Origin: Tilletia caries
Lineage: Eukaryota; Basidiomycota; Exobasidiomycetes; Tilletiales; Tilletiaceae
DNA: 64,000 nt
NCBI GenBank assembly: GCA_032718865.1
Contig: JALUTQ010000017.1
Span: 26,611 to 90,610 of the forward strand
Reading direction: 5' to 3'
The position numbers were made by a program, and so were the translations under genes. The notes beneath the pieces were generated by a model. That model worked only from the letters and a program-made list of their open reading frames with translations, searched no databases and was not told the origin of the DNA. Below, in pieces: positions 45,797 through 61,385 of this stretch (positions are counted from its first letter, which is position 1; each line of letters opens with the position of its first letter).

Positions 45797-46000
45797 ATTG
45801 ACTGGGATTATTTAATTTTTTTTTTGGCCGAAAAGAGAGAGGGATCGGGCCACTCACCACTCACCGACTCACCGCTCACCAGCACCACTGACCACAACCC
45901 ATCACCAATCCCCACCGCTCCATCCTTTTTCCTCACATACTTCAGCATCAAAGCATCGTCTTTCTTCTCCACAGCAGTGTTCTAGAGCATCATATCGACT

Positions 46001-47089
46001 ATGCCTTATCGGCGTCTATCCCAAGAAGTCAAAGATCTTTCCGTGCGCTTGGTTCTCGATGGCCAGGCAACGGTCAAGTACCTCGCCAAGCAAGGAATCC
46101 TTTCGGCCAGTACCTTCTATAGGTGAGTAATAAGTAGTTACATGTTACGTATTACTATAGACTGACGCAACTCGCAAGTATATATTCAGGTATCTCCAAG
46201 ATCCACGGCCGCATCGAAATTCTCCAGGAAGACCTCGTCTCCTTCACCACACCGCCATCCAGTTTCTTCAAGAGCTCATTCTGCGTCATCCTGACCTATA
46301 CCTGGACGAGATTGGCGACATTCTGCATCAAACGGTTGGGACGCGTGTCTCGATCAGTACGGTACACAGATCGCTCAAAAGAGCCGGTATCACGTTGAAA
46401 CGCGCGCACCGCATTGCGCAGGAACAATCCGAGACCCGTCGCCGCGACTACATCCTCCGAATCAGCCAGTACGAGGCGAATCAGCTTGTTTTCTCCGACG
46501 AGACGTCGTACGACGCCAGAGATGCGGTCCGTGTTCGAGCCCGAAGCGCAAAGAACTCGCACGCCCGGCTCAAGCGTCCTTACATCAGAGGCGGTCGCCT
46601 GTCATGCATCGCGGCGTTATCTGCAGATGGTCTGTTTGCTCCCTGGGCAGTTCGAGGATCGTTCAACGGCGATCGATTTTTGCTCTTACCTGCGTACGGA
46701 GCTCTTGCCAAGAATGCAGCCATATCCGGCTCCCAATTCTGTGCTAGTTCTCGACAATGCAAGCTTCCATAGGTCCAGCGAAGTCAAGGAGCTCGTCGAA
46801 AGCTTTGGTCAGTTTTCAAATGTCTCTCTTCTCTGAATGCTTGATTTGGTCATTGGTGTTGCTTTCTGAATTCCGCTCGCACTCTTTTTCTCTTACAGGA
46901 TGCAAGCTGGTACTTCTCTCTGCATACAGCCCAGACTACAACCCCATTGAGCGTGCTCATGCCAAGATGAAGGCAATGCTTCGACGAGAACGCGCGACAG
47001 AAGTACGAGCCGACAACTTCTACCATGCTGTGAGCACCATCACTGCCGCAGACTGCCGGGCGTGGATGCGTTTGGCCGGATACTTCTAG
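46001..47089 (+). pseudogene. Tc1/mariner transposase with a frameshift
   Basis: Exon 1 is 46001-46122 (MPYRRLSQEVKDLSVRLVLD, helix-turn-helix), then an intron, then exon 2 from 46190 (PRPHRNSPGRPRLL; second HTH STVHRSLKRAGIT). Catalytic Asp in LVFSDETSYD, second Asp in SVLVLDNASFH, Glu in SPDYNPIERAHAKMK after a further intron (46808-46898); the last two are 34 residues apart (DD34E). Between GSFNGDRF and CSYLRTELLPR the frame slips by one base in a run of five T (about 46677-46681), so this copy cannot make a full protein as read. The stop is at 47089. It lies head to head with the helicase gene, 205 bp between starts. I found no clear terminal repeats. Confidence 0.85.
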
Positions 47090-47979
47090 TTGTCGATGTT
47101 TGCAAGCTACGCCGTCCAATGTCCACTACTATTCATTCAGCACTCAAAACAGTTTGATTGCGTTTTTTCTACACCCTTTTTGATGCTGAGAAAGCTGGAA
47201 CCTGGGTCCTGGGGGTTGCGACTGGCCGAAGGTTAGGGTTAGGCTATGCGGCGTTTTAGATGTCAAAGAAAATCACTACGCTAAGCTACATCCGAGAAAT
47301 GTCACAAAGGACAGCGATCCCCTCCTACATCCTGCGAGTGTAAAACACCCGAGAATGATGCTGCCCGTTCCGTGCGCACACAGAAAAGTAACACCTCCCC
47401 CTCCGAGCTCACAACCGTACGATCATCCGCCATCAGGGAACGTAGTCCACGGGCGTTCACCACAGAGGCACACCATTGATGCCCTGGGCCGTTTACTTCC
47501 CGCGATCCCAACTGATGTCACTCCTCCATGCGACATCACAAACACCCGGCCATCCATCCCACAAGCATTCACTTCCGCTTTGGTTTCAATAGCCTTACCC
47601 CGGCAGACCATACCCCCGCTCCGGTCGACCGGATTCGGCAAGGATCGACTCCTCCGACTTCCCCTGTCCGCCCCACCAAACGGCGAACCGGGACGACAGG
47701 GAATACATGGGGCGGGATTCAGACGACTGGGGGTGAGTGGAACGACAAGACGCAGAGAAAAGCACATCGGCAGCAACCCGCGAGGGCGTCAACCATACGG
47801 CCCTCTGACAGTCCTACACTGCCATCCCACACTCCCCGCAGCCCGGCCACATCTCCCCACGACATGCCCCCCGCTTGTACTCTCGAAAGAGACAGCAAAG
47901 ACGAAGACACTACCCCCCTCCCGTTCCCTTGCCGGAGGGATAACGCCACCCCCGTCCGGGTCGGCTCCCTCACCTGAAA
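47090..47979. other. No confident gene; short telomere-like motif
   Basis: Open frames on both strands are Pro/Thr/Arg-rich and unconvincing. GGTTAGGGTTAGG at about 47231-47243 equals two telomere units and marks where sequence changes from ordinary to GC-rich subtelomeric type. Confidence 0.4.
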
Positions 47980-48592
47980 TTTATAAGACGCGCGGCGGTG
48001 GAATGGGCCCCTCTTCCCGCGCGTGGTCGGCCGTCGCGAACTTGTAAGAAGCGCGTGGACATAATTAAGCCGAGCCCCCCAACCCGCGCTCATGGCAGTC
48101 CGCGTGTGATTTTGTACCGCGCGAGAGCATACGAAAGACTGCCCGCCTCCCCGCGCCCGAGCCGCCCTCCCCACCTCCTCAGGCGGAAGTGGAACCAGAG
48201 CGGCCTAGTGCCCCGCCTCTTTATTTGTACCGCGCAGTCGCTTCTTTGAGAGCACCGTCCGTCCTGCGCCTGATGACCCGCTTGTGATTTGTATGGCGCA
48301 GCAGCATAATCAAGGTCATCATCCCCCCTGCGCCGGGTGCACCCACTCGCGTGAGTGTCCCAGGTGAGAGCACCTGCCCCGCAGGCACTCCCCTGTGGTC
48401 CGCTTGTGACTTGTATCGCGCAGCAGCAGTATTACGACCACAACACATCCTGCGCCGAGAACCCCGCTTGTGACTTGTATCGCGCAGCAGCAACCATTAA
48501 GGGCACCAGGCATCCTGCGCCGAGAACCCCGCTTGTGACTTGTATCGCGCAGCAGCAACCATTAAGGGCACCAGGCATCCTGCGCCGAGTCA
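47980..48592 (+). repeat. Degenerate-to-exact tandem array, unit 60-70 bp
   Basis: Units begin GCTTGTGACTTGTATCGCGC, then AGCAGCA, and end CATCCTGCGCCGAG. The last two (about 48465-48594) are nearly identical. Those at 48399 and 48280 differ in the middle, and those before 48240 keep mainly the TTGTAcCGCGC core. The array abuts the stop codon of the retrotransposon on the minus strand, so it would be its 3' untranslated region. The same TTGTACCGCGC core recurs at about 54293, at the 5' side of the endonuclease gene. Confidence 0.75.
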
Positions 48593-48593
48593 C

Positions 48594-51500
48594 TTAACAA
48601 GATGCCTGGGGTGGCGTCTTGTTTTTTAACGAAGTCGATCCCCGAGCCGGGATGCTCGCCTTGATCGCTGCCGCCACTGCCTCAGGCCCATCCCGCTTGA
48701 TGGCACCCCACAGCGCCCACCGCTCCTGCGGCGTCATCTTCTTGAACGGCTGGGCCGGGTCGTACCCCTTGCCAAGGTGCGGCTCGTGGTCTCCGAGGCC
48801 CTGGCCAGCCGCCCGTAGCTGGAGCATGTCCAGCAGGATTTTGCGCGCACCCCGCGGAGGGATCGTCAGACCGAGTCTGAGGTACTCGGCCTGGTCCTTT
48901 GGGTCGACGTTGGCCTTGAACGAGCGTGGGTGCAAGGTCGCGTACTTGCCAATGTCGTGGTCGAGCTCGTGCTCCTCGCCGCGTGCCCTGACAACGTTGT
49001 CTCGCTTCGGCGGCAGAGGAACCACGTCGCGCTGCTTGCCACGCTGACGCTCTGACATCGTCTGCGCCGAGGAAGAGGCGGTGGCAAACAAGATGCCGCC
49101 GGTGGCATCTTGTCTGGCAGGTCGGTGTTGTCTCGGCAGCGCACTAGCCGACGTTGTTGCTTCCGCACCCGTGGATGCCGGAGCTGACATGATGGATCCC
49201 GAGGAAAACAAGGTGCCACCTGTGGCATCTTGTTTGGCTGCTCGCTGTCGCTCGAGCAAGGCCCGGGCTGCCTCCTCTGGTACTTGTACTGCAGCAGACT
49301 GCCTGGCCGAAGAAGACCCGGAGGCAGACAAGGTGTACCTCGCGTCGTCCCTTGCGTACTCTTCTCCGCCGAGCCAAGGAGGCAGTTGCTTCTTTGGTCG
49401 TCTTGGTGGATCCGGTACGGCGGAGGAAGGCGCGGCCGAAAACAAGGTGGCAGCAGTGCGATGTTGTTTGGCCAGCTCAGCGAGGACCCAAGGGGCAATC
49501 GGAGAGCTTGGCTGGCCATCGTCGTCGCTGTCTTGGGTAATCGTACGGCGCTTCCGCTTCCGTGCCGCTGGAGGAGGGGTTGCGGAAAACAAGATGCCAC
49601 TGCCGTCGTCTTGTTGCGGCGATGCAATTCTGCGGCGAGAGGGGGCAGGGCTTTCCTCCCCGCGGGTGCTGTCGACCCGCTTCCGCTTACTCCCTCCGGG
49701 GACAGGAGACGAGTCTTCGGACGAGGATGGCAGGTGGATACCACCGCGGCCCTCTTCGCTCTGACCCCGTCGGGCCTGTCGGGCGTGGTACTCGTCCATG
49801 GCCTTGTCGTTCCCCTTCTGGATGCGCTCCCACATCTTCCGCTGGGACTGGGCGTGTGTCATCTTCGTGTACGGCTTGGCGGGATCATAGCCCTTGCCTT
49901 CCTCGGGGCTGTGCCTGGTGTGGCCCTGGCCGACGGCACGGATGTTGAGCTCTTTGATCAGCGCTGCACGAGCCGAGCGGCAGGGGATCGCCAGGCCAAG
50001 CTTCTCGTACTCCGCGCGCTGCTCCTCTCGCACCGTTGGCCTGAAGCAGGACGGGTCCAGGGTGGCGTACGTTTCCACCGGGTGGGGCAGCCACCAGCCG
50101 CCGACGTTCTTGGGGTCGTTGATCTGGCGCGGCTCTGGTGTACGCCGGTCAATGCCTTCGTTGACCGCCGCCACAGGTCCCTCTGTCAGGTGGAAAGCAA
50201 GGTCAGTTTGAAACAAGATGCCGCTGGTGTCATCTTGTTTTTTTAGAGGAGTGTACTTACCTGCACCGCCCATCGCACCGATCGCAGTGTATGCATCCAG
50301 GTCGGCCCAGTCGGGAGCCAGGCTGGTGTCCATCGCCTGAGGCACGCGCCGGCTGATCTCCTTCTCCTTGCGAGCCCGGGCACTGGTCTTGTCTGCCTTC
50401 TTGGGCTTGATGATCTCGTCGGCCGTGCCCGTCTTCCGGTTGAGACGATCGACGTAGACCATCAGCGTGCGGAACTCGGCATACCGCTTCTCGTTCAGGT
50501 AGGCATCTGGTCGCAGGTAGTTGCGCTTGGAGAGGCCTCGATAGTACTTCTTCCTCTTCTTCTTCTTCTTCTTGCCGTCGCCCGGGTCGTCGGGGTCCTT
50601 GCGCTCGGTGCTCCACCACGCCCTGTACTTGGCAATCCCGCGGTCCAACATGCGCTGGTCAGACTCGGACACCTTGGGATAGCAGCCGTACTCTTCGGCG
50701 CATTTGTCAATGCATCTGCGCTGGAGAGTCTCGCCGCAGCCGGAGCAGGGGATCCGAGCACAGAAGCGATTGATGCGCCAATCAATCGCCCGCGTACGAG
50801 TCTCTCTGTTGTCAATGAAGATGCACGAGTCCGGACGGGGCTCGGTCATGTTGGGCCGGCTGGCGGGTATGGGCAGTCGTGCCTCTGGGCGAATCTTTTC
50901 GAGCAGCTTCGACGTGGGCTTGTGGAGGGCGAGCATGAGGTAGGCTCGCAGCTGGAGCGTCTGCTGGACCTTGGTGTTGGGCGTAAGGTCCAGCGTCCGT
51001 CTTGTTTCCCTCTCATCCGGAAGTTTCTGGAGGACCTTGTCCGAGCGAGTGCGGGCCAGCAAGGCGTCCTCCCAGCTGGTGTCCTCCACGGGCGCGTGCT
51101 CAAGCTCGGTCATCCTCAGGCTCGCCACCGAGCTCGGGTCCAACGAGAGCATGTGCTTCTGGAGCATGACCGCGAGCTTGTACATGCGGTCCTCTGGGTG
51201 GTTGAGGCCGAAGATGGAGCCGAGGACGCGGATGGGGTTGAGCTTCCCTCCCCGGTTGCCGATCCAGAGCATGGCCTCCTTGTGGTGATCGTCGAACTCC
51301 TCTGTCCACTCGTGACGGGCCTTGGTCTGCTCTACCCGAACAAGACGACTCTCGTGGCATCTTGTTCGGTCCTCGGGGGTGGAGACGTCGAAACAGAGGT
51401 ACCAGAGCAGCGCACCGCCATAGTCGAGCAAGGGCCGGGCCAGCGTCTTGTAGATTGCCAGTCGGACCGCAGGCGTCCAGTGCTTGCCGATGATGTCCAG

Positions 51501-53973
51501 ATACCGGACCATGCCCGTGGCCTTCTTGAAGTTCTTCTTGCATCGCTCCAGGAAGTCGACGCCGCCGCTCAGGTGGGGGAATCCCAGGTAGGTGTACGAG
51601 GCCACCCGGGGCAGGGTGTTTCCATTGATCTGGAGGGGGAGGAGGGCCTGCTCAACGTCTTCCTCTCCTTCGGCGACGAGCTCGGCCGACTTGCTGATGT
51701 TGACCTCCATCCGATTGGTCAGGCACCACTGGTCCAGCTTCGCCAGTATGGCAACCATGGTCACGCGTGTCGTGGTCCGCAGCTTGAGATCGTCGGCGTA
51801 GAGGAGGGACTGCGTCGCATCCTCCGAGACGTTCCCCGTTGGCACCAAGACGTCGGAGGGCAGATCGTCTATGTAGACGTTGAACAGGTACGGCGCCAGT
51901 AGCGAGCCTTGGAAGATGCCCCGCACCCGCTCGAATGCCGCGGGGGAGAGGGTCCCGTTGACATTGACAAACGAGCGGGTCCCAATGCACAAACTGTACA
52001 GCAGCGACATCTTGCCTGGAGAGAGACCCCTCGCCCGCAGCTTGAGGAACAGCTGTGACATGGCCGTCCGGTCATACGCCTGCTTGAGATCGATGAACAC
52101 CTGCGTGCCTGGGTCGCGCATTGCATCGGTGTGAGCGACGAGGGCGTGCGACACGGTGCTGTAGCCGGCTCGGAAGCCCGCCTGTGCCGGGTGGAACGTC
52201 TTCTCGGTCTCGGTAAAGGTGGCCAGGAAGCACTTCTCGAACAGCCGGCGGAAGAGGACCGTGAGGGAGATGGGCCGCATCTTGTCAATCTGGTGGAACT
52301 CGGGCTGTCGCACGCCGGCGGTGGCTGCTTCCGGAACGGTCTCGGCAGCGCCCTTGGGGATTGGGTGGACCACGCTCGTATTCCACCGCGTGGGCGTCAA
52401 CCCCGTCCTGATGCAGAGCTCGAAGAGGTGAGCCAGGAGCTGCCCAAGTCCTTCCTCGGACAGCGCCTTGATCAGCACGGGGTGGATCGCATCGGGTCCC
52501 GCGGAACGAGCGGCTGGGTACTCCTTGATCGCTCGCTGGACGGCGTCGGCATCGAAGCCCGTGAGGAGGTCGTCGACATCTTTTTCCATCGGCGGCGGTG
52601 GTCGGAAAGGCATGTTGTAATCCGCCGATGTGTCTGGAATGTACAGTGCCTGGTAGAACTGCATTACGTCCTCGGTCACCGTCAGGGTCGCCGGGCTGCG
52701 TGAGACAATGATGGCCTGGGACCCGCGTTGTGACCGGCGGAACTGTCGCATGGCGCTGGCTGCCGTTGGTTTGCCCTCCAGTCCCTGGGCGAGGTAGTCG
52801 GGCTGGGACTTGACCTCGGTGGCCGAGTAGGTGCCAAAGGCCTTGCTGGTGACGTCCCACAGCATCCGTCCGATGAGCCGGTCTGCCTTGTTGACGGTGC
52901 CCTGAGCCGAGCCGGGGTCGAGTCGCGTGCGGGCCTTCTTGAGCGTCTTGAGGACCTTGGGGTAGGCCCGGTACCAGTGCCAGAGCAGGGCCCGTTTGCG
53001 CTTGGGATCGTCGAGGTGTTTGATCTGTCTCCAGAAATCGAGTCAGTGTTTGCTAGAGAAACAAGACGCCTCACCTGGCGTCTTGTTCGCGTGTTGGAGG
53101 GGTGGAGAAAAAAAACAAGATGCCACTCCTGTCATCTTGTTTTGTACTCACCTGAAGACGCCGGATGGGCTGGAGCAGAGGATCATTGCTGAGGTCAATG
53201 CTCATCGTCGCTGGTGGTGGTTCCGGGCCGGCATCGGCATCCGAGACGGTGTCTGCGACGGGCGGTGCGGTAGCTGAAGCAATCTGCCATGTGGCCTTGA
53301 CGTCCATGATCGGGTGGTTCGTCCGGATGTGTTTCGCCGTCTTGTGTGCGATCAGGACCGCGCTCACCCCAGGACGAGTGTAGAGGTGGTCCAGCCAGAC
53401 CCGGTACGGACTATGAGGCGCGGGGTGGTGGTGGGTCAGTCCGTGCTCGTGCACAAAGTCGTTCATGACATCGAGGCGGTCTTGGGGCCCCGAGGACGCG
53501 TCGCCAAAGGAACGGCCGTACCGGATGTTGACGTCACCGAGGATGATGTCCGGCACGGCTCCCGTACTCGTCGGCCGCAGGTACGTCTTGTACGAGTGTG
53601 CCATCGAGGGGTCGTTGGGCAGGGTCGTGGGAGGCATATACACCGCGTGGATCACCCTGCCCTGGACGGTCACGGATATGCTGTACGGGCTGGTCTCCGT
53701 GTGGGAGATCAGCCCCCGGACCCTCGCGCCGGCCCAGAGTGCAAGGCCACCATTACGGTGACCCTGCACGACGACTCCCCTCACCCTCGCCTCGCGCGTG
53801 GTGGCATAGAGGTCGCCCCCCCACGCCTCCAGCCCCGCGGGGCAGTGCCACGTCTCCCCCGCAAAGAGGAGCGTGTCCTCGTCGGCGCGGGCCATGAGGT
53901 CCCGCGCCTTGCCACGACTGAGCCCCGTAACATTTAAATACAAGATGCGAAGAAAAAAGGGAGTAGAAAACAT
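48594..53973 (-). CDS. Non-LTR retrotransposon endonuclease-reverse transcriptase
   Basis: Two exons, 53973-53152 and 53024-48594, give 1,750 residues. Exon 1 is an exonuclease-endonuclease-phosphatase domain: LYLNVTGLSRGKARDLM, LLFAGETWHC, DIILGDVNIRYG, TNHPIMDV. Exon 2 has the reverse transcriptase: MRPISLTVLFRRLFEKC, AGFRAGYSTVSHALVAH, VFIDLKQAYDRT, GIFQGSLLAPYLFNVYIDDL, LLYADDLKL, MEVNISKSAEL. A Cys patch (CSGCGETLQRRC) follows, then a long C-terminal region with two copies of a roughly 75-residue domain (YATLDPSCFRP..GQGHTRHSPEEGKGYDPAKP and YATLHPRSFKA..GQGLGDHEPHLGKGYDPAQP). Five palindromes are read in frame as KQDxxxGILF-like peptides. The ATG used here lies inside palindrome H10 and the TAA inside H1. 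No frameshift seen; possibly intact. Confidence 0.82.
48596..48623. repeat. 11-6-11 palindrome H1
   Basis: Spacer TGGGGT; right arm GGCGTCTTGTT (one change). On the minus strand it encodes the last residues of the reverse transcriptase and its TAA stop. Confidence 0.85.
49087..49114. repeat. 11-6-11 palindrome H2
   Basis: Spacer GCCGGT; last base of the right arm is C. Read on the minus strand in frame as RQDATGGILF. Confidence 0.85.
49207..49234. repeat. 11-6-11 palindrome H3
   Basis: Left arm AACAAGGTGCC, spacer ACCTGT, right arm consensus. In frame on the minus strand as KQDATGGTLF. Confidence 0.85.
49441..49468. repeat. 11-6-11 palindrome H4 (degenerate)
   Basis: Arms AACAAGGTGGC and GCGATGTTGTT, spacer AGCAGT. 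In frame on the minus strand as KQHRTAATLF. The most diverged coding copy. Confidence 0.7.
49588..49615. repeat. 11-6-11 palindrome H5
   Basis: Spacer ACTGCC; right arm GTCGTCTTGTT. In frame on the minus strand as QQDDGSGILF. Confidence 0.85.
50212..50239. repeat. 11-6-11 palindrome H6
   Basis: Spacer GCTGGT; right arm GTCATCTTGTT. In frame on the minus strand as KQDDTSGILF. Confidence 0.85.
51339..51366. repeat. 11-6-11 palindrome H7
   Basis: Left arm AACAAGACGAC, spacer TCTCGT, right arm consensus. Inside reverse transcriptase coding sequence but read in a different frame (RTRCHESRLVR) from the other coding copies. Confidence 0.8.
53060..53087. repeat. 11-6-11 palindrome H8
   Basis: Arms AACAAGACGCC and GGCGTCTTGTT (paired compensatory change), spacer TCACCT. 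In the 127-nt intron between endonuclease and reverse transcriptase exons. Confidence 0.85.
53114..53141. repeat. 11-6-11 palindrome H9
   Basis: Spacer ACTCCT; right arm GTCATCTTGTT. In the same intron as H8, starting 10 nt from the splice donor. Confidence 0.85.
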
Positions 53974-53996
53974 GATGCCACTGGAGGCTTCTTGTT
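53969..53996. repeat. 11-6-11 palindrome H10
   Basis: Left arm AACATGATGCC, spacer ACTGGA, right arm GGCTTCTTGTT. On the minus strand it gives KQEASSGIMF; its Met is the likely start of the endonuclease gene. Confidence 0.8.
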
Positions 53997-54002
53997 TTCG
54001 AG

Positions 54003-54110
54003 TGGCGATGAGGAGGAGGAAGTCGAAGATGGCGAGGAGGAGGTCGAAGATGGCGAAGAGGAGGTCGAAGATGAGGAGGAGGAAGTCGAAGATGGCGAGG
54101 AGGGAAGAGT
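54003..54110 (+). repeat. Purine-rich 15-30-nt tandem repeat
   Basis: Repeats of GAAGATGGCGAGGAGGAGGTC and variants, about five copies. On the minus strand they would encode a hydrophobic FDFLLL-type run just upstream of the endonuclease start, probably untranslated leader. Confidence 0.7.
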
Positions 54111-54283
54111 GGCGATGGCGATGGCGAGGGTGAGGGCGAGGATGAGAGAGAGAGGGCGGGAGAGAGGGAGTGTCGAGGCCGAGGTCGAGAAGGGAAAGAG
54201 ACGGGACACGAGAAAGGGATAGCTCCTGCAAGAGGAGAACGCTGGAGGGAAAAGGAAGGGGGGATGGGCAGAAAAGGGTCAGC

Positions 54284-54292
54284 TTATATACC
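54284..54292 (-). promoter_or_regulatory. TATA-like box of the endonuclease-RT gene
   Basis: GGTATATAAGC on the minus strand, directly followed upstream by the TTGTACCGCGC core that also builds the 48-kb array. It lies about 310 bp before the inferred start codon, so it may serve as an internal promoter. Position inferred only. Confidence 0.35.
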
Positions 54293-54600
54293 TTGTACCG
54301 CGCTGCTTCTTCCACCTTCCATCCCCTTCGAGCACAGTCAGCAAGAGTGAGCGCACGCGCGCATGAGACTAGAGTCGAATTCGAAATAGGAGATAAAGAG
54401 AGAGAGAGAGAGACGGGAGCACGTTGTGGGCGGAGGGTGGTGGCAACTTGTTTGTTTGTTGTCTCGGATTTGTTTGTGGCGCGGAGGTGGAGGCCGCTTT
54501 GTTTGTTACTCTGTTTCGGAACTAGATTTGTTTGTGCCGGATGTAGATCGCAGCCGAAATGGTGGCGTCGCAGCCGAGAGGTGGAGGAGCGAGTCTTATT

Positions 54601-56174
54601 TTAGGCTCGGACCGTAGCCGAGGCGGGGTCGTGCCAGTAGTACGTCAGCTCGTGCTCCCGGGCAAGGAACGCCGCAGCCACGGCCTCGCGTCCCTTTTCC
54701 GCATGCTGCAGGCGGAGTCCCTTGAGATCGAGAAGGAACTTGGCACGTGCCGCCACGAGCTCGGCCTGATTCGGAGGCGGGCCCGTTGGGTTGTTTGTGC
54801 CAAACACGGCCTGGTACGGCGGCACAACCGAGAACGCCATCGGGCTGCTGACCACGCGATCGAGACCAAGGTAGCGAGCTCGCATCTGGAAGAGGCCGAG
54901 TCCACCCGGTTCCAGAATAATCATGGCAACGCCACAGGCTCCCCCAGCCACGTGGCCGAGGTGGAGGATCTTGCTCGTGTCAAAGCCGAGCGTGTGGAGC
55001 TCGGCACAGAGCTCGCTTGGCTTTGCGTTGCAGACCCCGGACCACCAGGCCAGATCGGGGAAGCCGCCGAGCTTGACCTCGGCAATGCTCTGCAGGGCAC
55101 GTGCCTGGGTGTACCAGCTCGTGTCCGGGCCCTCTTCGCCCTCGGTGCTGATGTCGTCATCGTCCTCGGAATAAATCGGGACGGGGTCGAGCGGGCTGGT
55201 CAGGTTGGGCGCCTCCTCCCAGTCCGGCTCGTTGAAGGTAAGGCCGCGCCAGATGGGGTCCGTGCCCGTGTCGGCGTCCTGGACGTGCTGGGACGACGGC
55301 ACGACGTGTTTGGGAATCGGGCTGCCTCCTTGGCCTCCGAAGAGGGGCGAGTCCTCCCGATTGAACAACGTCACGCTCGACGTGTTGGAGATGTCGCCGA
55401 GGACCGGGCGGGCGGCGGCACCGGCACCGGCAGCGGACTGGGTCGGCGTAAGCGGGTTGTCGTTGATGAGATCAACGAGCGCGTCCGGCACGGGAAGTCC
55501 CTGCTTCTCTGTTGAAAACGGTCCGAGAACGGGTCGGTCAAAACGGCGGTTCCTGAAAAAAAAACAAGATGCCTGGAGGGGCCTCTTGTTTTTGCAAGGG
55601 AGAAAAACTCACTGAAGACGTTGGCGGCCAGAGCGCGGTTCTTCTTCTCGCGGCGGAGGATGGGTGCCTGCTGGTGGGCGTAGGCGATCCACTCGGCAAG
55701 GTTGTGCTCGTGGGGCAAAACGTACGTCTTGTACTTCTCGGTCTCGGTCAACGTCGGGATGACGTGGAACAAGAACTCGCGCCAGTGCCACTTTTCCTTG
55801 TTCTTCGGCTGGCCACGGACGTTGCACACGTGGGACCAGAAACGAACTCCGAGGGAGACATCCTTGGTCCAAACCAGACCACGCTGGTGCTTCTTGCAGC
55901 GCTTGCACGTAGCATAGGGGCGGAGCAGGATGGTGAGCAGCTCGACCCAGTTCGACAGCGCCTTTTCGGTCTTCCAATCATACTTGGGGACCATGGTGCC
56001 TCTGCCGATCGGAGGGCAGGGAAGCAGCGGCTTGTCGTCACTGCCGGTGTCCGAGATCGGCATGGGCGAGCTGTCGCGCGTGCCTGAGGGAGACATCTTG
56101 CTTCGCGTGCGGCCTCGGTGTTTTGCGGAGGTGATCCGTGCCGTGCTGGAGCTCTTGGTCTTGGATGGCGGCAT
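54601..56174 (-). CDS. Retrotransposon-associated ORF1 (unknown)
   Basis: Two exons, 56174-55613 and 55508-54601, joined in phase; 489 residues. The N-terminus is Ser/Thr/Lys-rich (MPPSKTKSSSTARITSAKHR). Next comes a conserved-looking block: YDWKTEKALSNWVELLTILL, a CxxC pair in ATCKRCKKHQRGLVW, RFWSHVCNVRG and HWREFLFHVIP. The second half is acidic, then HVAGGACGVAMIILEPGGLG to a tail with AREHELTYYWHDPASATVRA. It lies directly upstream of the endonuclease-RT gene on the same strand, 0.6 kb before that start, like the ORF1 of two-gene non-LTR elements, although no CCHC knuckle is visible. Its 104-nt intron carries palindrome H11. RNA-binding function would be a guess. Confidence 0.65.
55563..55590. 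repeat. 11-6-11 palindrome H11
   Basis: Spacer TGGAGG; right arm GGCCTCTTGTT. In the ORF1 intron, followed on the left by A9. Confidence 0.85.
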
Positions 56175-56221
56175 GGCTGTAGGTGGCCCGTGCGCAGAGG
56201 TGGTCCGTGCGCAGAGCGGAG

Positions 56222-56232
56222 AAACAAGATGG
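56222..56232. repeat. Palindrome half-arm
   Basis: ACAAGATGGC without a matching right arm; similar half-copies occur at about 53942 (ACAAGATGC), 56921 (GGCACCTTGTT) and 57055 (AACAAGACGGC). They may be decayed units. Confidence 0.4.
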
Positions 56233-56334
56233 CGTGATCAGCACGATGACATCATACTATGCAAGCTTACGTAATCGATCACGTCATCCAGGGTATTTTG
56301 AAAAGCGTGGGTCCAGGGTGCACTTTTGGAGCAA

Positions 56335-56346
56335 AGATATATAAGC
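56335..56346 (+). promoter_or_regulatory. TATA-like box of the PIF1-like gene
   Basis: GATATATAAGC about 100 bp before the ATG at 56441, a normal distance for a fungal TATA element. Confidence 0.5.
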
Positions 56347-56687
56347 AGGCCCTTCCGCTGCCAAACTGGATGCCCCCTTTTCCCCCCTCCAAGGTTTCCT
56401 CAGTGCGCAACGATTCCCCCGATCGATCGATCGATCACCGATGCCTCCCTCCACCTCCACCACCTCCCAGCTCACCGGCCTCGCCGCCCTCCCCGACAGC
56501 GGCGAGCGCATCCTCCCCGTCTTCCACGACACCAACCAGCGCGAGGCCATCAAGTGGGCCACCGCGCACCTCGCCCGCACCTTCATCACCGGGCCCGCCG
56601 GTAGGTATCCCTCTCCTTCCCTCTCTCTCTCTCTCACACACACTCCCATGTACTTTACCATTAGTAGTCTTCCCATTTTCCTCCCCA

Positions 56688-56715
56688 AACACGATGCCAC
56701 CATGGGCATCTTGTT
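56688..56715. repeat. 11-6-11 palindrome H12
   Basis: Left arm AACACGATGCC, spacer ACCATG, right arm consensus. Near the 5' end of the PIF1-like intron. Confidence 0.85.
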
Positions 56716-57126
56716 TTGGGGGAGGAAAAAAGGGAGTGGGATCCTGGGTTTTCCACCCGGGATGGTCGTGGCCGGTCCGGCGCCCTCGGGCTGTCCGGAC
56801 CGGATGGGGACCCGGGTACACAAAACGTACCCGTGTCCCCGGGTGCGGACGGCGTGAAGTCGAAAACGGGGACGGGGGAAGGAGACATACCTGGAAACGG
56901 GTCAGAGGTGAACTTGGGGCACCTTGTTTTTCCTCTTGAGGAGGAAATGAGATGAGGGAAGGGGGGGAGGGTTTTGGAAGAGGGTGCGCCAGGGGTGCTT
57001 CTTATATACCTTTCTCCCAGGGGGTGGGTGGCGAAGGAAATTTCTTATCTTCGGAAACAAGACGGCACCAGATCGTTATGATGGCGTCACTCTGGGTCGC
57101 CGTCGGTCCCCGCCTTGCTAATACGC

Positions 57127-57260
57127 TATAATGGCTTGGTGGCGTCCGAATAGCCGAGTGGCGTTTCAGTCGCCAACTTGCTATTGTGGCTTGGTGGCTT
57201 GGTGGCTTGGTGGCTTGGTGGCGTTGTGGCGTTCTGGTTGCCGAGTGGCGTTCTAGTTGC
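57127..57260 (+). repeat. TGGC-type short tandem repeats in intron
   Basis: Runs of TGGCTTGGTGGCTTGG and GTGGCGTTCT with small variations, about 10-nt period, inside the PIF1-like intron. Confidence 0.65.
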
Positions 57261-57420
57261 CGGATTGGGGGTGCACGGGCCTCCAAAACAAGCTCGCACG
57301 GGCCCCGGGACCACGTGATCTCGGTCTTCGCAGATACGGAGATAACCGCCACTCTCTCGGCCGAGAGAACTCCGGGCCGGAGAGCACGGGGTCTCCGTGG
57401 GTCTTCGGTTCCATAAAAAA

Positions 57421-57448
57421 ACAAGATGCCTTTTCTGGTGTCTTGTTT
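57421..57448. repeat. 11-6-11 palindrome H13
   Basis: Spacer TTTTCT; right arm GGTGTCTTGTT. First of three clustered copies before the PIF1-like acceptor. Confidence 0.85.
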
Positions 57449-57461
57449 TTTAAGGCCCAAA

Positions 57462-57489
57462 ACAAGATGCCCCTCCCGTCATCTTGTTT
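57462..57489. repeat. 11-6-11 palindrome H14
   Basis: Spacer CCTCCC; right arm GTCATCTTGTT. Starts 13 nt after H13. Confidence 0.85.
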
Positions 57490-57507
57490 TCCAGAACTCT
57501 TTCCCAA

Positions 57508-57535
57508 ACATAATGCCCCTTGTGTCATCTTGTTT
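57508..57535. repeat. 11-6-11 palindrome H15
   Basis: Left arm AACATAATGCC, spacer CCTTGT, right arm GTCATCTTGTT. Ends 26 nt before the splice acceptor of the PIF1-like exon 2. Confidence 0.85.
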
Positions 57536-58242
57536 ACTAACCTCCTTTTCCCTTACCACAGGAACGGGCAAGACCACGGTCCTGCAAGAGATCATCTATC
57601 AGAAGCGAAAGGCGACGAAGGGCAACCCCAATGCCGTCGCTGTTGTGGCGCCCACCAACCTGGCCGCCATGGCCCTCGGCGGAGTCACGCTCCATGCCTG
57701 GCTCGGCATCAGCGTGGACGAGTGGGCGGACAAGAGCGCCGAGTCGCTGGAGAGGACGATCCGTTCTCGTGACGCCGCCGCCACGCGTGTCAAGAAGGCC
57801 GAGATCCTCGTTATGGATGAGGTTCCGTACTTGACCGCCGAGGCTTTTGACAAGCTCGACCAGGTCATCCGACTCCTCCGCGGCGTGGGCCAGACACCCT
57901 TCGGCGGCATGCCCATTGTCATGGCGGGCGACTTCTATCAGCTCGGTCCGATCGGTCCCCGCGACCCAGAGCCGGGCACCGTCCTCCGCGCCGCCTTTGA
58001 GGGCTCGTCGTGGCGGAACGGAGCATTCGAGAAGAACTTTTACTTCACGACGCGCTATCGCCATCGCGGTGATCGCAGGTTTATTGCCCTCTTGGATACG
58101 GTTCGGACGGGTACGCTCTCCGAAGACACATTGAAGGAACTCACAGAGCTGGAGCGCCCTCTTCCGGCTGATGGCCCACCCGTCCTGGAGCTGTGCCCCA
58201 CTCGCCATCAAGTCACGGAAGCCAACGCGGCCAAGTTGGCCC

Positions 58243-58284
58243 TTAGGGTTAGGGTTAGGGTTAGGGTTAGGGTTAGGGTTAGGG
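58243..58284 (+). repeat. Interstitial telomere repeat (TTAGGG)7
   Basis: Seven exact TTAGGG units, G-rich strand pointing right. They begin within the PIF1-like reading frame and end at the 3' side of the Penelope-like element. Confidence 0.95.
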
Positions 58285-59314
58285 TTAAAGTAAGAAGTGA
58301 AGTGACAACTTGAGGGAGACTTGAAGAGGAGTCGAGGATGGCGAGTAAGACGTGGCTACAGGTGCGCTTACTGTTTCGTCCTCAAACTGGACTCTTCAGG
58401 CGTCGTCTTTATACCTTTTTGGATCCCCTACGGGGACTTCTCTGATTTCTGTTGGGCATCCCTGTCAAGGTGCGCTTTCTACGGGGTTCTACGATGTTCC
58501 GAAGACGCATCGCGCCCCAGAAAACTAAGTGAACTTGTCCCAACAGAAGAAAAGAAGGGTAACAAATTTGGGGGGGAGTCCCTCAAATTACGATGTGGCG
58601 TTGTGGCTTTGGGGTGGTGCCCCAAATTAAGTGCCCTCGGCCTTTGGATCGAAGTACCCTTTTTCTGAATGATCCGTATGACCTTTCATCTCGGTGTCAG
58701 CCGATGGGTCCTAGCTCCCTTTTTCAGGGGGGGTTCTCATTCGAGTACTGACGTGGCAGTGCTGGGTCTTAATCAGGAGACCGACGGATAGCCGATTACC
58801 ACAGCCAAATTTGGGGGGGTGTGGGGACCTCAACCAAATTGGGGGGGTCTTTCGGGGCTAAGTCGGTGATCTGTCATAAGTCTCAGGTAGCCGAGATGTG
58901 GGGATATAGGTCTCAGAGAGGTTTGTTTCTTCTTTTTTTGTCTTTCTGTCTATGTCGATGGTCCCATATAGGATGGCGTCATCGTTCATTCTCCATTTGT
59001 AACTCTAAGTCATAAATGGATTCACAGAAAGTACAAATCAGATTGTGTATGGCTTTCTAGTTACTAACCGGTGATCGCTCTTAGAACTGTCTTTGTACTA
59101 GACTAGTTAATCGAGACGATACTTCTCTATGTATAAGGTGCTGGAACCTTATACTAGCCATCGGTGTTCTACTTTTTGAAAATGTCAATTTTTTTGGCAT
59201 TACTAGGCCTAAGCCGTTCCCTAAATAGGATATACCCGTCTGACCGACCCACTAAGGGGACTGCGGGAAAATAATGCCAAAAAAATCGTCGAAAAAAATC
59301 GGCGAAAAAAAATT

Positions 59315-59396
59315 GACGACCATACGCGGATTCGAACAAGGGACTTGGAGTGATACAGGAATCAAACTTCCTACCACTGGTCCATAGTCCCCGCCG
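59315..59396 (-). other. tRNA-like sequence in PLE 3' region
   Basis: On the minus strand ACTATGGACCAGTGGTAGG resembles an A box, and GTTCGAATCC is a perfect B box 45 nt later. Acceptor and T stems pair poorly, so a working tRNA is unlikely. Confidence 0.35.
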
Positions 59397-59734
59397 AATT
59401 TGTTAAACTACTTACCCTCAAGCACTCATATACTACATTCCTACTAAGTTTATAGTATCCATATGGTACTTTCTTAAGTTAAGAGTTAACAATGTTATCC
59501 TTAAACCTTTCTATGGTCTCTTTGTTCTTACGGTTGAATAAGTCTCCTAGAGCGGGAGGTTTACTTTGGCTATGTATGACCCTAGTGTTAGTTGGAAGAA
59601 ATTCTAGACTTTCCCAAGTCGTTAGAATAGCATCCCATACTGTCTTCATGTTAGTACCTTCCCATAAGGGATTATATGTACTCTTAAAGATGAGAGTTTC
59701 AACCTTGTCTTTCTCAGTTGGAGTACACTCTGTC

Positions 59735-61258
59735 TTCCCTGTTAAGGTGAATGCACGAGTGTTCTGATAATCGACCGTTAGGAAGACTTTGTTGAGGAAC
59801 CCGTGAGGGTAACCTCGTGCACGCAGTCTAAGATAGAACTTTTTTTCCGTATCTCTAAGAAGCTGTTCAATTCTGAGCAGTTCCTTACATGTCGTAGCAG
59901 TTCAGCTTTTTATCCATGCTTTCTTAACATGTAGTGGATGATACGAGGACCATGGTATATACTGGTATGCATTCATGGGCTTTTTGATATGTCTTTGTTA
60001 GGAGTTGAATGTTGTCTTTAACTTTAGCAGTTACGACTTCAACATCTAAGAAGGTCATTGAGCTTTTTTTGAAACATTCCAGGTGAACTTAAAGTTACTA
60101 TGCTCGCTTTCAAAGTTATCGATGAAGTTTTTGTGGAGAGTCTTTGTTGCCTCTGACTACCACAAAGATGTCATCAAGATACCTGCCATAGTACTTTATG
60201 TTCTGTCCCTGTCCCGAGTTAGTCTGAGATGTCCCAGTATACTCGGCTTCTGCCATAACCAAGTTGGCATACATGGGAGCACACGAGGTGCCCATGGCTG
60301 TGCCTTTAACTTGTAGGTAGTACTTTCCCATAAAGGTAAAGTAGTTATTACGAAGAATCTTTTTCTAGTAATTTTTAGTACTAGAGTTATGGTCTCTATA
60401 GGCAGAGAGGAGCGTTTAAGTATATTTGCCATGCATTCTAGACCCCAGTCTGTAGGGATGCTAGGGTACATTGCTTCAACGTCTCCTGAAATCAGCCAGA
60501 TGTCCTCTTCAGGGTCTGGAGATCCAATGGAAGTATATCTCATTGGCAGGGTTTGTAAGAAGGTAGTCGTGTCCTTAAGGATCCAAGGGTAGTCCTTGAC
60601 TATGACCTTAAGTTTTTTTCTGCAACCCAGATTGATGCATTCGTATAGAATGTATTAAAGCTAGGCACTATAGGTCTTCCTAGGACAGGACTCTTATGTA
60701 CTTTAGGAAGTAACTTAAAGTAAGGAAGGGATGATTCTACATCGGATCTCACAAGTAGCCACTTACGTTCCTGAAGGGTCAAGGACCCTCCAAGTTTGTA
60801 AATGGTTTCCTTGATCCATCTTCTGTCATCTAACCAATCTGGTTCTTCCACTTCCTTGTAAACTGCCTTGTCGGTCAGTTGTCTTAAGGCTTCTTTATAG
60901 TACCACTCGACCGGTACGATTGCCATACCCATATTCTTATCTGTAGGTAGAATTAGTAAGGACTCTTCTCTTAAGAAGATGTCCAGGGTCTTTATGGCAT
61001 GTATCGGTGGGTTAGGCCGAGTGAGTTTCTTACTCATTAAAGATTCTAAGATGGCATAGCCTTTGCTAATTCCTTTTTTTCAAATTTAGCATTGCCCTTA
61101 GGTGCTTCCGTGTTAGATACAATATGGAATTTAGGGTTAAATTCTTTCTTGTATTGATTCTTACGGTAAGCCCATTTCCATCTTAGTCTTCGAACGAAGT
61201 CCCCATATGAATTCTTCCAAAGTTCTTCCTTTGGGTTAGGAGTGGGAATGAATTTCAT
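59735..61258 (-). pseudogene. Penelope-like reverse transcriptase, frameshifted
   Basis: Starts near MKFIPTPNPKEELWKNSYGD (61258), then NPPIHAIKTLDIFLREESLL, ILPTDKNMGMAIV, LPYFKLLPKVHKSP, WLISGDVEAMYPSIP, KGTAMGTSCAPMYANLVMAE and YYGRYLDDIFVVVRG (catalytic Asp pair). The distal part reads TYQKPMNAYQYIPWSSYHPL then HVKKAWIKAELLRHVRNCSE. These blocks are typical of Penelope-like enzymes. Frame changes are needed at about 61040, 60360 (A-rich run before NNYFTFMGKYYLQ), 60115 and about 60000, so this copy is dead. Confidence 0.85.
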
Positions 61259-61286
61259 ATTGTAAGAGATAATTCTCTTAGGGGGG

Positions 61287-61385
61287 TTAGGGGTTAGGGT
61301 TAGGGTTAGGGTTAGGGTTAGGGTTAGGGTTAGGGTTAGGGTTAGGGTTAGGGTTAGGGTTAGGGTTAGGGTTAGGGTTAGGGTT
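61287..61385 (+). repeat. Interstitial telomere array, about 16 TTAGGG
   Basis: Near-perfect TTAGGG repeats in the same orientation as the 58.2-kb array, the first unit with an extra G. It abuts the 5'-truncated side of the Penelope-like element, and ordinary sequence resumes at 61386. Confidence 0.95.

Follow-up and report, generated by a model that had tools for sequence, protein, structure and literature searches.

The window analysed here is a stretch of 64 kb that forms the end of the 90,610-bp contig C12 (C12:26611-90610). It contains a locus in which a LINE-type element lies head-to-head with a PIF1 helicase gene, the latter being cut off by telomere repeats. The genes and repeats of the locus are the following.

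48594 to 53973, minus strand: LINE-type gene (RVT_1, E=1e-21; T. laevis protein P0001)
54601 to 56174, minus strand: ORF1-like gene, single intron (99% identity to T. controversa P0055 across 95% of the query)
56440 to 58242, plus strand: PIF1-like helicase gene (PIF1, E=4.4e-26)
58243 to 58287, plus strand: (TTAGGG)n, about 7-7.5 units, joined to the broken PIF1 reading frame

The closest proteins to the products of these genes are from Tilletia laevis and T. controversa. The minus-strand ORF (1423 aa) shows no substitution with respect to T. laevis P0001 (1698 aa), except in a 26-residue stretch that is an intron in the T. laevis model, and the upstream exon matches the first 250 residues of P0001 at 99.2%. 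The T. laevis model has two introns and starts at 53895; position 53973 corresponds to an in-frame ATG within one of the palindromes described below (copy 9). More distantly, a T. indica relative of the RT protein is ~49% identical, and the best other match in the assembly reaches 50% over 181 residues. Besides RVT_1, inspection of the LINE-type protein by eye points to an apparent EN-like N-terminus, a stretch rich in Cys and a C-terminal domain that is duplicated. The two copies of the latter (GQG..H....GxGYDP; 48654-49031 and 49773-50135, minus strand) have counterparts, again two, in a decayed relative of the element on contig C39; at E 0.001 the rest of the assembly has none. The domain could be modelled confidently from four sequences (pLDDT 84.8), and a fold search with this model gave no PDB match. 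The ORF1-like gene lies upstream of the RT gene on the same strand and its product has no Pfam match. On the other side, the PIF1 gene has an intron of about 960 nt (56601-57561) that splits the Walker A motif, and the telomere repeats at 58243-58287 are placed directly on the broken frame, as in chromosome-end healing. Of the DNA between 53200 and 58240, only brief segments of a GAG-rich part recur elsewhere in the assembly, at four places, over 71-116 bp and with 73-79% identity.

Several other features surround these genes. The GC content per kb is 59-64% at 48001-58000, versus 50-57% at 40-48 kb. A 65-bp tandem repeat (2.9 copies, 48400-48589), perhaps the 3' tail of the LINE, ends just before the first palindrome, and what by eye I take to be a Tc1/mariner-like transposase remnant is located at 46000-47232; 143 bp at the end of this remnant match contig C21 at 98%. 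Beyond the PIF1 gene, a second interstitial (TTAGGG)n array occupies 61284-61385. The interval 59200-61283 (minus strand) is AT-rich, has telomere repeats on both sides and includes frameshifted pieces that by their motifs look like a Penelope-like reverse transcriptase. Endonuclease-lacking telomeric Penelope-like elements are flanked by telomere repeats.

The LINE/PIF1 locus is studded with short palindromes of 28 bp, two 11-nt arms around a 6-nt spacer, which are listed here without strand.

48596 to 48623: copy 1, providing the final codons and the stop codon of the minus-strand RT gene
49087 to 49114: copy 2, coding, C-terminal tail of the RT gene
49207 to 49234: copy 3, coding
49441 to 49468: decayed fifteenth copy, coding
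49588 to 49615: copy 4, coding
50212 to 50239: copy 5, predicted intron 50260-50183 (minus)
51339 to 51366: copy 6, coding, length-variable linker after the RT domain
53060 to 53087: copy 7, arms GACGCC/GGCGTC, predicted intron 53151-53025 (minus)
53114 to 53141: copy 8, predicted intron 53151-53025 (minus), shared with copy 7
53969 to 53996: copy 9, 5' end of the RT gene; a one-base variant gives an ATG in the RT frame
55563 to 55590: copy 10, intron of the ORF1-like gene (minus strand, from 55612 to roughly 55513, with ends deduced from P0055)
56688 to 56715: copy 11, PIF1 intron
57420 to 57447: copy 12, PIF1 intron
57461 to 57488: copy 13, PIF1 intron
57507 to 57534: copy 14, PIF1 intron, directly before a TACTAAC branch-like site

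The palindrome family is real and striking. When the 64-kb window is scanned for AACAAGATGCC-N6-GGCATCTTGTT, tolerating up to 3 mismatches among the 22 arm bases, 14 matches are obtained between 48596 and 57534; the comparison with shuffled sequence suggested by the first-pass annotation yields an expectation of 0.00 (dinucleotide shuffles of the window, n=100). That annotation had claimed 15 fixed-length palindromes. Fourteen of them are clean at this threshold, but the fifteenth (49441) survives only as a strongly decayed copy, with a weight-matrix score of 17.8 versus 33.8-43.1 for the others; the next-best place in the window scores 8.5. Its strict 6-nt spacer is confirmed in 14/14 copies: when a spacer of N{0,30} is allowed, all eight exact degenerate matches have 6 nt and lie at the locus. 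Every spacer is different, as it had stated, for all 14 copies. The annotation had also confined the family to 48.6-57.5 kb and proposed a genome search with the arm-N6-arm pattern; run on all 40 contigs of the assembly (38,104,258 bases), the strict pattern returns the same 14 copies only and a reversed-pattern control returns 0, so that the restriction now extends to the genome. A looser degenerate pattern with 3 mismatches matches the forward strand 45 times, 14 times at the locus and 31 times elsewhere (at best with one mismatch, at C39:621456). Since the reversed control gives 35, the 31 outside matches are at chance level. The single 12-mer arm AAACAAGAYGMC has 21 matches on both strands of the genome, 15 in C12 and 6 elsewhere, versus 19 in all for its reversed control, and is thus not enriched outside C12 across the assembly. 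The family was not found dispersed over the 38.1 Mb, where the 14 copies occupy one locus. Rfam has 0 matches over the gathering score in the window. Outside Tilletia, the pattern occurs as 13 single matches in a prokaryote genome collection (257 Gb), which I read as chance, and 0 times in viral contigs. Among the matches listed in a literature search that mostly left aside subscription papers, there was no nuclear fungal palindrome family of this kind. The main text of PMC9172201 contains neither 'palindrom' nor 'telomer'.

Comparison of the copies shows what is conserved in them. Between copies, the arms differ by 11%, the spacers by 62% and the 20 flanking bases by 72%, the random expectation being 74%, in agreement with the conserved arms of the first description. 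The spacers had been called free, which holds insofar as all of them differ and their between-copy difference is 62%, but their outer positions are biased. Counted symmetrically, the first spacer position is A in 14/28, and positions 12/15 are C or G in 26/28 and C in 19/28; the two outer positions carry 0.41 and 0.53 bits of information, versus 0.12 at the centre. The spacer as a whole shows a weak symmetric preference. The conserved arm is one base longer than first described, with A at -1 in 23/28. Several arm changes had been described as paired or G-U compatible; as evidence of hairpin maintenance they are not supported. Arm substitutions number 21 (8 left, 13 right), and the arms pair at 135/154 positions, versus a mean of 135.2 with shuffled arms (P 0.72; low power, given 21 substitutions). 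Only one paired double change occurs (53060), versus 0.93 expected from shuffled arms (P 0.70). Moreover, C-T, T-T and A-G mismatches, which cannot pair as RNA on either strand, are frequent. The 21 substitutions therefore show no covariation in this low-power test, which indicates that half-site sequence and spacing are kept, not pairing. Within the arm, position 7 is T or C in 26/28 and position 9 is C or A in 28/28, defining the tolerance classes Y and M. The two half-sites adhere to one consensus independently of each other, in the manner of sites for a symmetric DNA-binding protein. Single near half-sites (one mismatch) are also present outside the 14 units: the 9.84 kb of the locus hold 6, where a Markov model predicts 0.4, and the remaining 54.16 kb of the window hold 8; the excess at the locus suggests turnover of an old array.

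As annotated, the palindromes occur across the retrotransposon, including its predicted introns, and in the intron of the helicase gene on the opposite strand. With introns defined by gene models and splice motifs, 8/14 copies fall in predicted introns, whose share of the locus is 1261 of 9649 bp (13%); this has P 1.2e-4 on the assumption of independent copies, which may fail for neighbours. Every predicted intron of the locus (4/4) has at least one copy. Variable coding stretches hold 4/14: the C-terminal tail carries three clean copies and the decayed one, all in one reading frame, and the linker of copy 6 is of variable length in an alignment of P0001 with 30 relatives (31 sequences). In the T. 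indica protein this linker has no palindrome-coded stretch. Two minor features may be added. The palindrome-coded peptides (QDATGG-LF; 49087-49234, minus strand) give P0001 a weak match to Nucleoporin_FG2 that stays below the cut-off (E 0.029), and copy 11 sits in an inverted repeat of ~68 bp (56669-56736), larger than the other copies.

The palindromes could act as RNA hairpins in the transcript, in intron splicing, in RNA packaging by the LINE proteins or in processing. Indeed, every predicted intron has a hairpin between donor and acceptor, the intron of copies 7 and 8 is more stable than its shuffles (z -3.47), and so is copy 7 alone on the plus strand (z -3.77). However, the other two of the three introns folded, all from the RT and ORF1-like genes, do no better than shuffles (z -0.58, -0.85), the copies lie on both coding strands and in exons as well, and neither the lack of covariation (at low power) nor the mismatches that are unpairable on either strand are what a working hairpin would leave behind; I regard this explanation as very unlikely. 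Introner-like elements, short mobile units through which introns are gained and which carry splice sites and make whole introns, were compared too: 4/4 predicted introns contain the unit, as an introner would have it, but the unit differs from the intron itself, whose donor and acceptor sit outside the unit, copies are also exonic, and the pattern is not beyond chance in introns elsewhere in the genome. The 11-6-11 arrangement also evokes the core sites of tyrosine recombinases (28 bp, Xer/pdif geometry), which would here mark the ends of the LINE and PIF1 genes and domain boundaries. The RT gene has copies at its start and its end and at points between its domains, and the genome encodes tyrosine-recombinase-like matches (31 weak ones to PF00589, 10 of them over the cut-off, and 3 to PF11917). 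Contig C12 has none of these, however (PF00589, PF11917), and no rearranged product is seen. The arms of pdif are split 11+11 as well; those of dif are much less symmetric than the Tilletia arms. As in the Tilletia array, the spacers of dif and pdif sites vary between sites, and several sites occur per 10-kb unit. According to the part of PMC13141974 used here, pdif sites are 28 bp long with a 6-bp spacer, but the exchanges reported are between identical spacers. No two of the 14 Tilletia spacers match, no recombinase is linked to them and the locus is eukaryotic and nuclear, which makes recombinase sites a highly improbable answer. Finally, the palindromes might be by-products of coding-repeat duplication in the RT C-terminus, where copies 2, 3 and 4, with the decayed copy placed before copy 4, follow each other at 120, 234 and 147 bp in one reading frame. 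Since these copies (49087, 49207, 49441, 49588) lie in stretches that by eye are loosely similar, local duplication can account for no more than them, up to three clean copies plus the decayed one; the flanks of the remaining 11 lack long similarity, and these copies lie on both coding strands, so that duplication is extremely improbable as the general cause. A still more decayed remnant may exist near 49325. Segmental duplication, or duplication as sole cause, was rejected: flanks match only over short stretches (for example 16 nt at 94% between the flanks of copies 9 and 11), leaving aside neighbours whose flanks overlap or include the unit. The first-pass annotation had named descent of all copies from one segmental duplication as the outcome that would speak against it; no long flank similarity was found apart from neighbouring copies. 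Its suggestion of selection on, or copying of, the unit itself fits this result and the contrast between arms and flanks.

Copying of the unit would be at work if the palindromes were a nuclear, locally spread counterpart of the organellar palindromic mobile elements (mitochondrial GC clusters, double-hairpin elements, Volvox palindromes), with stems constrained and loops free, that had spread locally into tolerated places such as introns, intergenic DNA and variable protein stretches. The double-hairpin elements of Allomyces and the PstI palindromes of Neurospora are short organellar palindromes of this sort. Both are named in PMC7218506, which, in the portion cited, also treats the stem/loop contrast and intron preference. 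In the excerpts used of the respective papers, changes in GC42 of yeast mtDNA affect loops rather than stems (PMC4478555), and the palindromes of Volvox favour introns, their nuclear copies being inert transfers according to the authors (PMC2670323). On the strength of these excerpts, the yeast and Volvox repeats resemble the Tilletia family in being short palindromes with conserved stems and variable loops, dense in one compartment (intergenic DNA, in Volvox introns, where Tilletia palindromes are found too); they differ in being organellar and present in many copies per genome, whereas the Tilletia family is nuclear, exactly 28 bp long, partly exonic and limited to 14 copies at one locus. 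The preference for predicted introns is as expected of such elements, and so are the coding copies, which lie in a C-terminal tail of low complexity and in a linker of variable length, and the pattern of conserved stem and variable loop, although stem pairing shows no covariation. Direct repeats abutting the units exceed those of shuffled flanks at trim 2 (21 versus 7.7; 0/2000 shuffles) and at trims 0 and 3 (P 0.006 and 0.011), but not clearly at trims 1, 4, 5 and 6 (P 0.061, 0.155, 0.40 and 0.44). If only repeats of at least 3 are counted, with trims up to 6, P is 0.38; without the three exonic repeat copies it is 0.06-0.83, the eight intronic copies have no excess (P 0.19-1.0), and no direct repeat of fixed length recurs. 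The abutting repeats give a mixed and weak signal for target-site duplication, with which mobility is still compatible. Furthermore, the spacers are nearly saturated with changes when the arms are nearly identical, and all copies lie within one 9-kb locus of a 38.1-Mb assembly rather than being dispersed in number. The T. indica linker at copy 6 is four residues longer and has no palindrome, and copy 6 is therefore not a simple net insertion. Local spread of a mobile palindrome is the main rival of the binding-site reading given below, conceivable but somewhat unlikely on this evidence. A parent transposon with the arms as terminal repeats was also tried and rejected, only 6 of the 21 matches to the arm 12-mer being outside C12, versus 19 for the reversed control. 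Subterminal repeats of DNA transposons are repeated short motifs inside an element, and to that extent similar, but the Tilletia units show no terminal clustering and no parent transposon with their arms was found in the assembly.

The explanation that I tentatively prefer, while giving it somewhat less than even weight, is that the 14 palindromes form a locus-specific array of putative dimer binding sites. One symmetric (dimeric) DNA-binding protein would recognise them as double-stranded sites, each made of two inverted half-sites of 11-12 bp (AAACAAGAYGMC), the length of the 6-bp centre being fixed by protein geometry and its sequence mostly not. This proposal builds on what is observed: the restriction to the locus, inverted half-sites at a fixed 6-nt spacing in 14/14 copies, conservation of half-sites without pairing, substitutions that are independent between the two arms (135/154 versus 135.2; low power, 21 substitutions), tolerance classes at half-site positions 7 (Y) and 9 (M), a weak symmetric preference in the centre and near half-sites that are commoner at the locus. 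Protein binding, the dimer state and a role in silencing, anchoring or cutting are inferred from these. Dimer operators and transcription-factor site arrays consist of inverted half-sites at fixed spacing; the Tilletia array shares with them this arrangement, the independent variation and the weak symmetric centre preference, but its half-site is long (11-12 bp), its sites are scattered through coding sequence and introns, and the rest of the genome shows no enrichment. Such an array would mark one LINE/PIF1 locus only, which implies that the recognising protein must act on that element only. The protein would either be encoded by the element or come from the host as a factor specific for the element, which it would silence, anchor or cut. 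Several observations count against the dimer-site array. No binding protein emerged, with no fold match for a model of the duplicated RT C-terminal domain and no Pfam match for ORF1; the sites lie within coding sequence and introns, not promoters; the lack of half-site enrichment in the rest of the genome is unusual for a host factor; the decayed LINE relative on C39 has no match to the palindrome pattern; and the T. indica protein lacks a palindrome-coded stretch at the copy-6 linker. The palindromes are best filed with conserved inverted half-site arrays and short palindromic elements.

A broader formulation, which I consider unlikely, is that a nuclear retroelement locus carries its own dedicated 28-bp site array, of recombinase or dimer type, that is read by an element-specific protein. 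The array would then be an addressable site code for one selfish locus, marking gene ends, domain boundaries and introns with an Xer-like 11-6-11 geometry; I know of no such code in fungi. Palindrome families of comparable kind have been described from organelle genomes. A nuclear family at a single retroelement locus would, if borne out, point to an element-specific DNA-binding system or to very local spread of minimal DNA, and both readings are testable, by a search for a binding protein and by comparison of the locus between T. caries, T. laevis and T. controversa.

A family finder was also applied to 49 loci near other LINE/PIF1 sequences, away from the palindrome locus; they measure 3.3-10 kb, and some overlap. 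Only one other family emerged from this small sample, a tandem ACTATAGTGA array on C39. The C39 relative of the LINE contains an insert (L054:2712-3500) with inverted ends (AAGGTTGTCCCCGGAGT) and many GCGGAGC motifs, by eye probably a DNA transposon with subterminal repeats. Further along, at L054:7140-7300, tandem TCACTATAGTGA palindromes occupy the middle of what appears to be a further inverted-repeat element.
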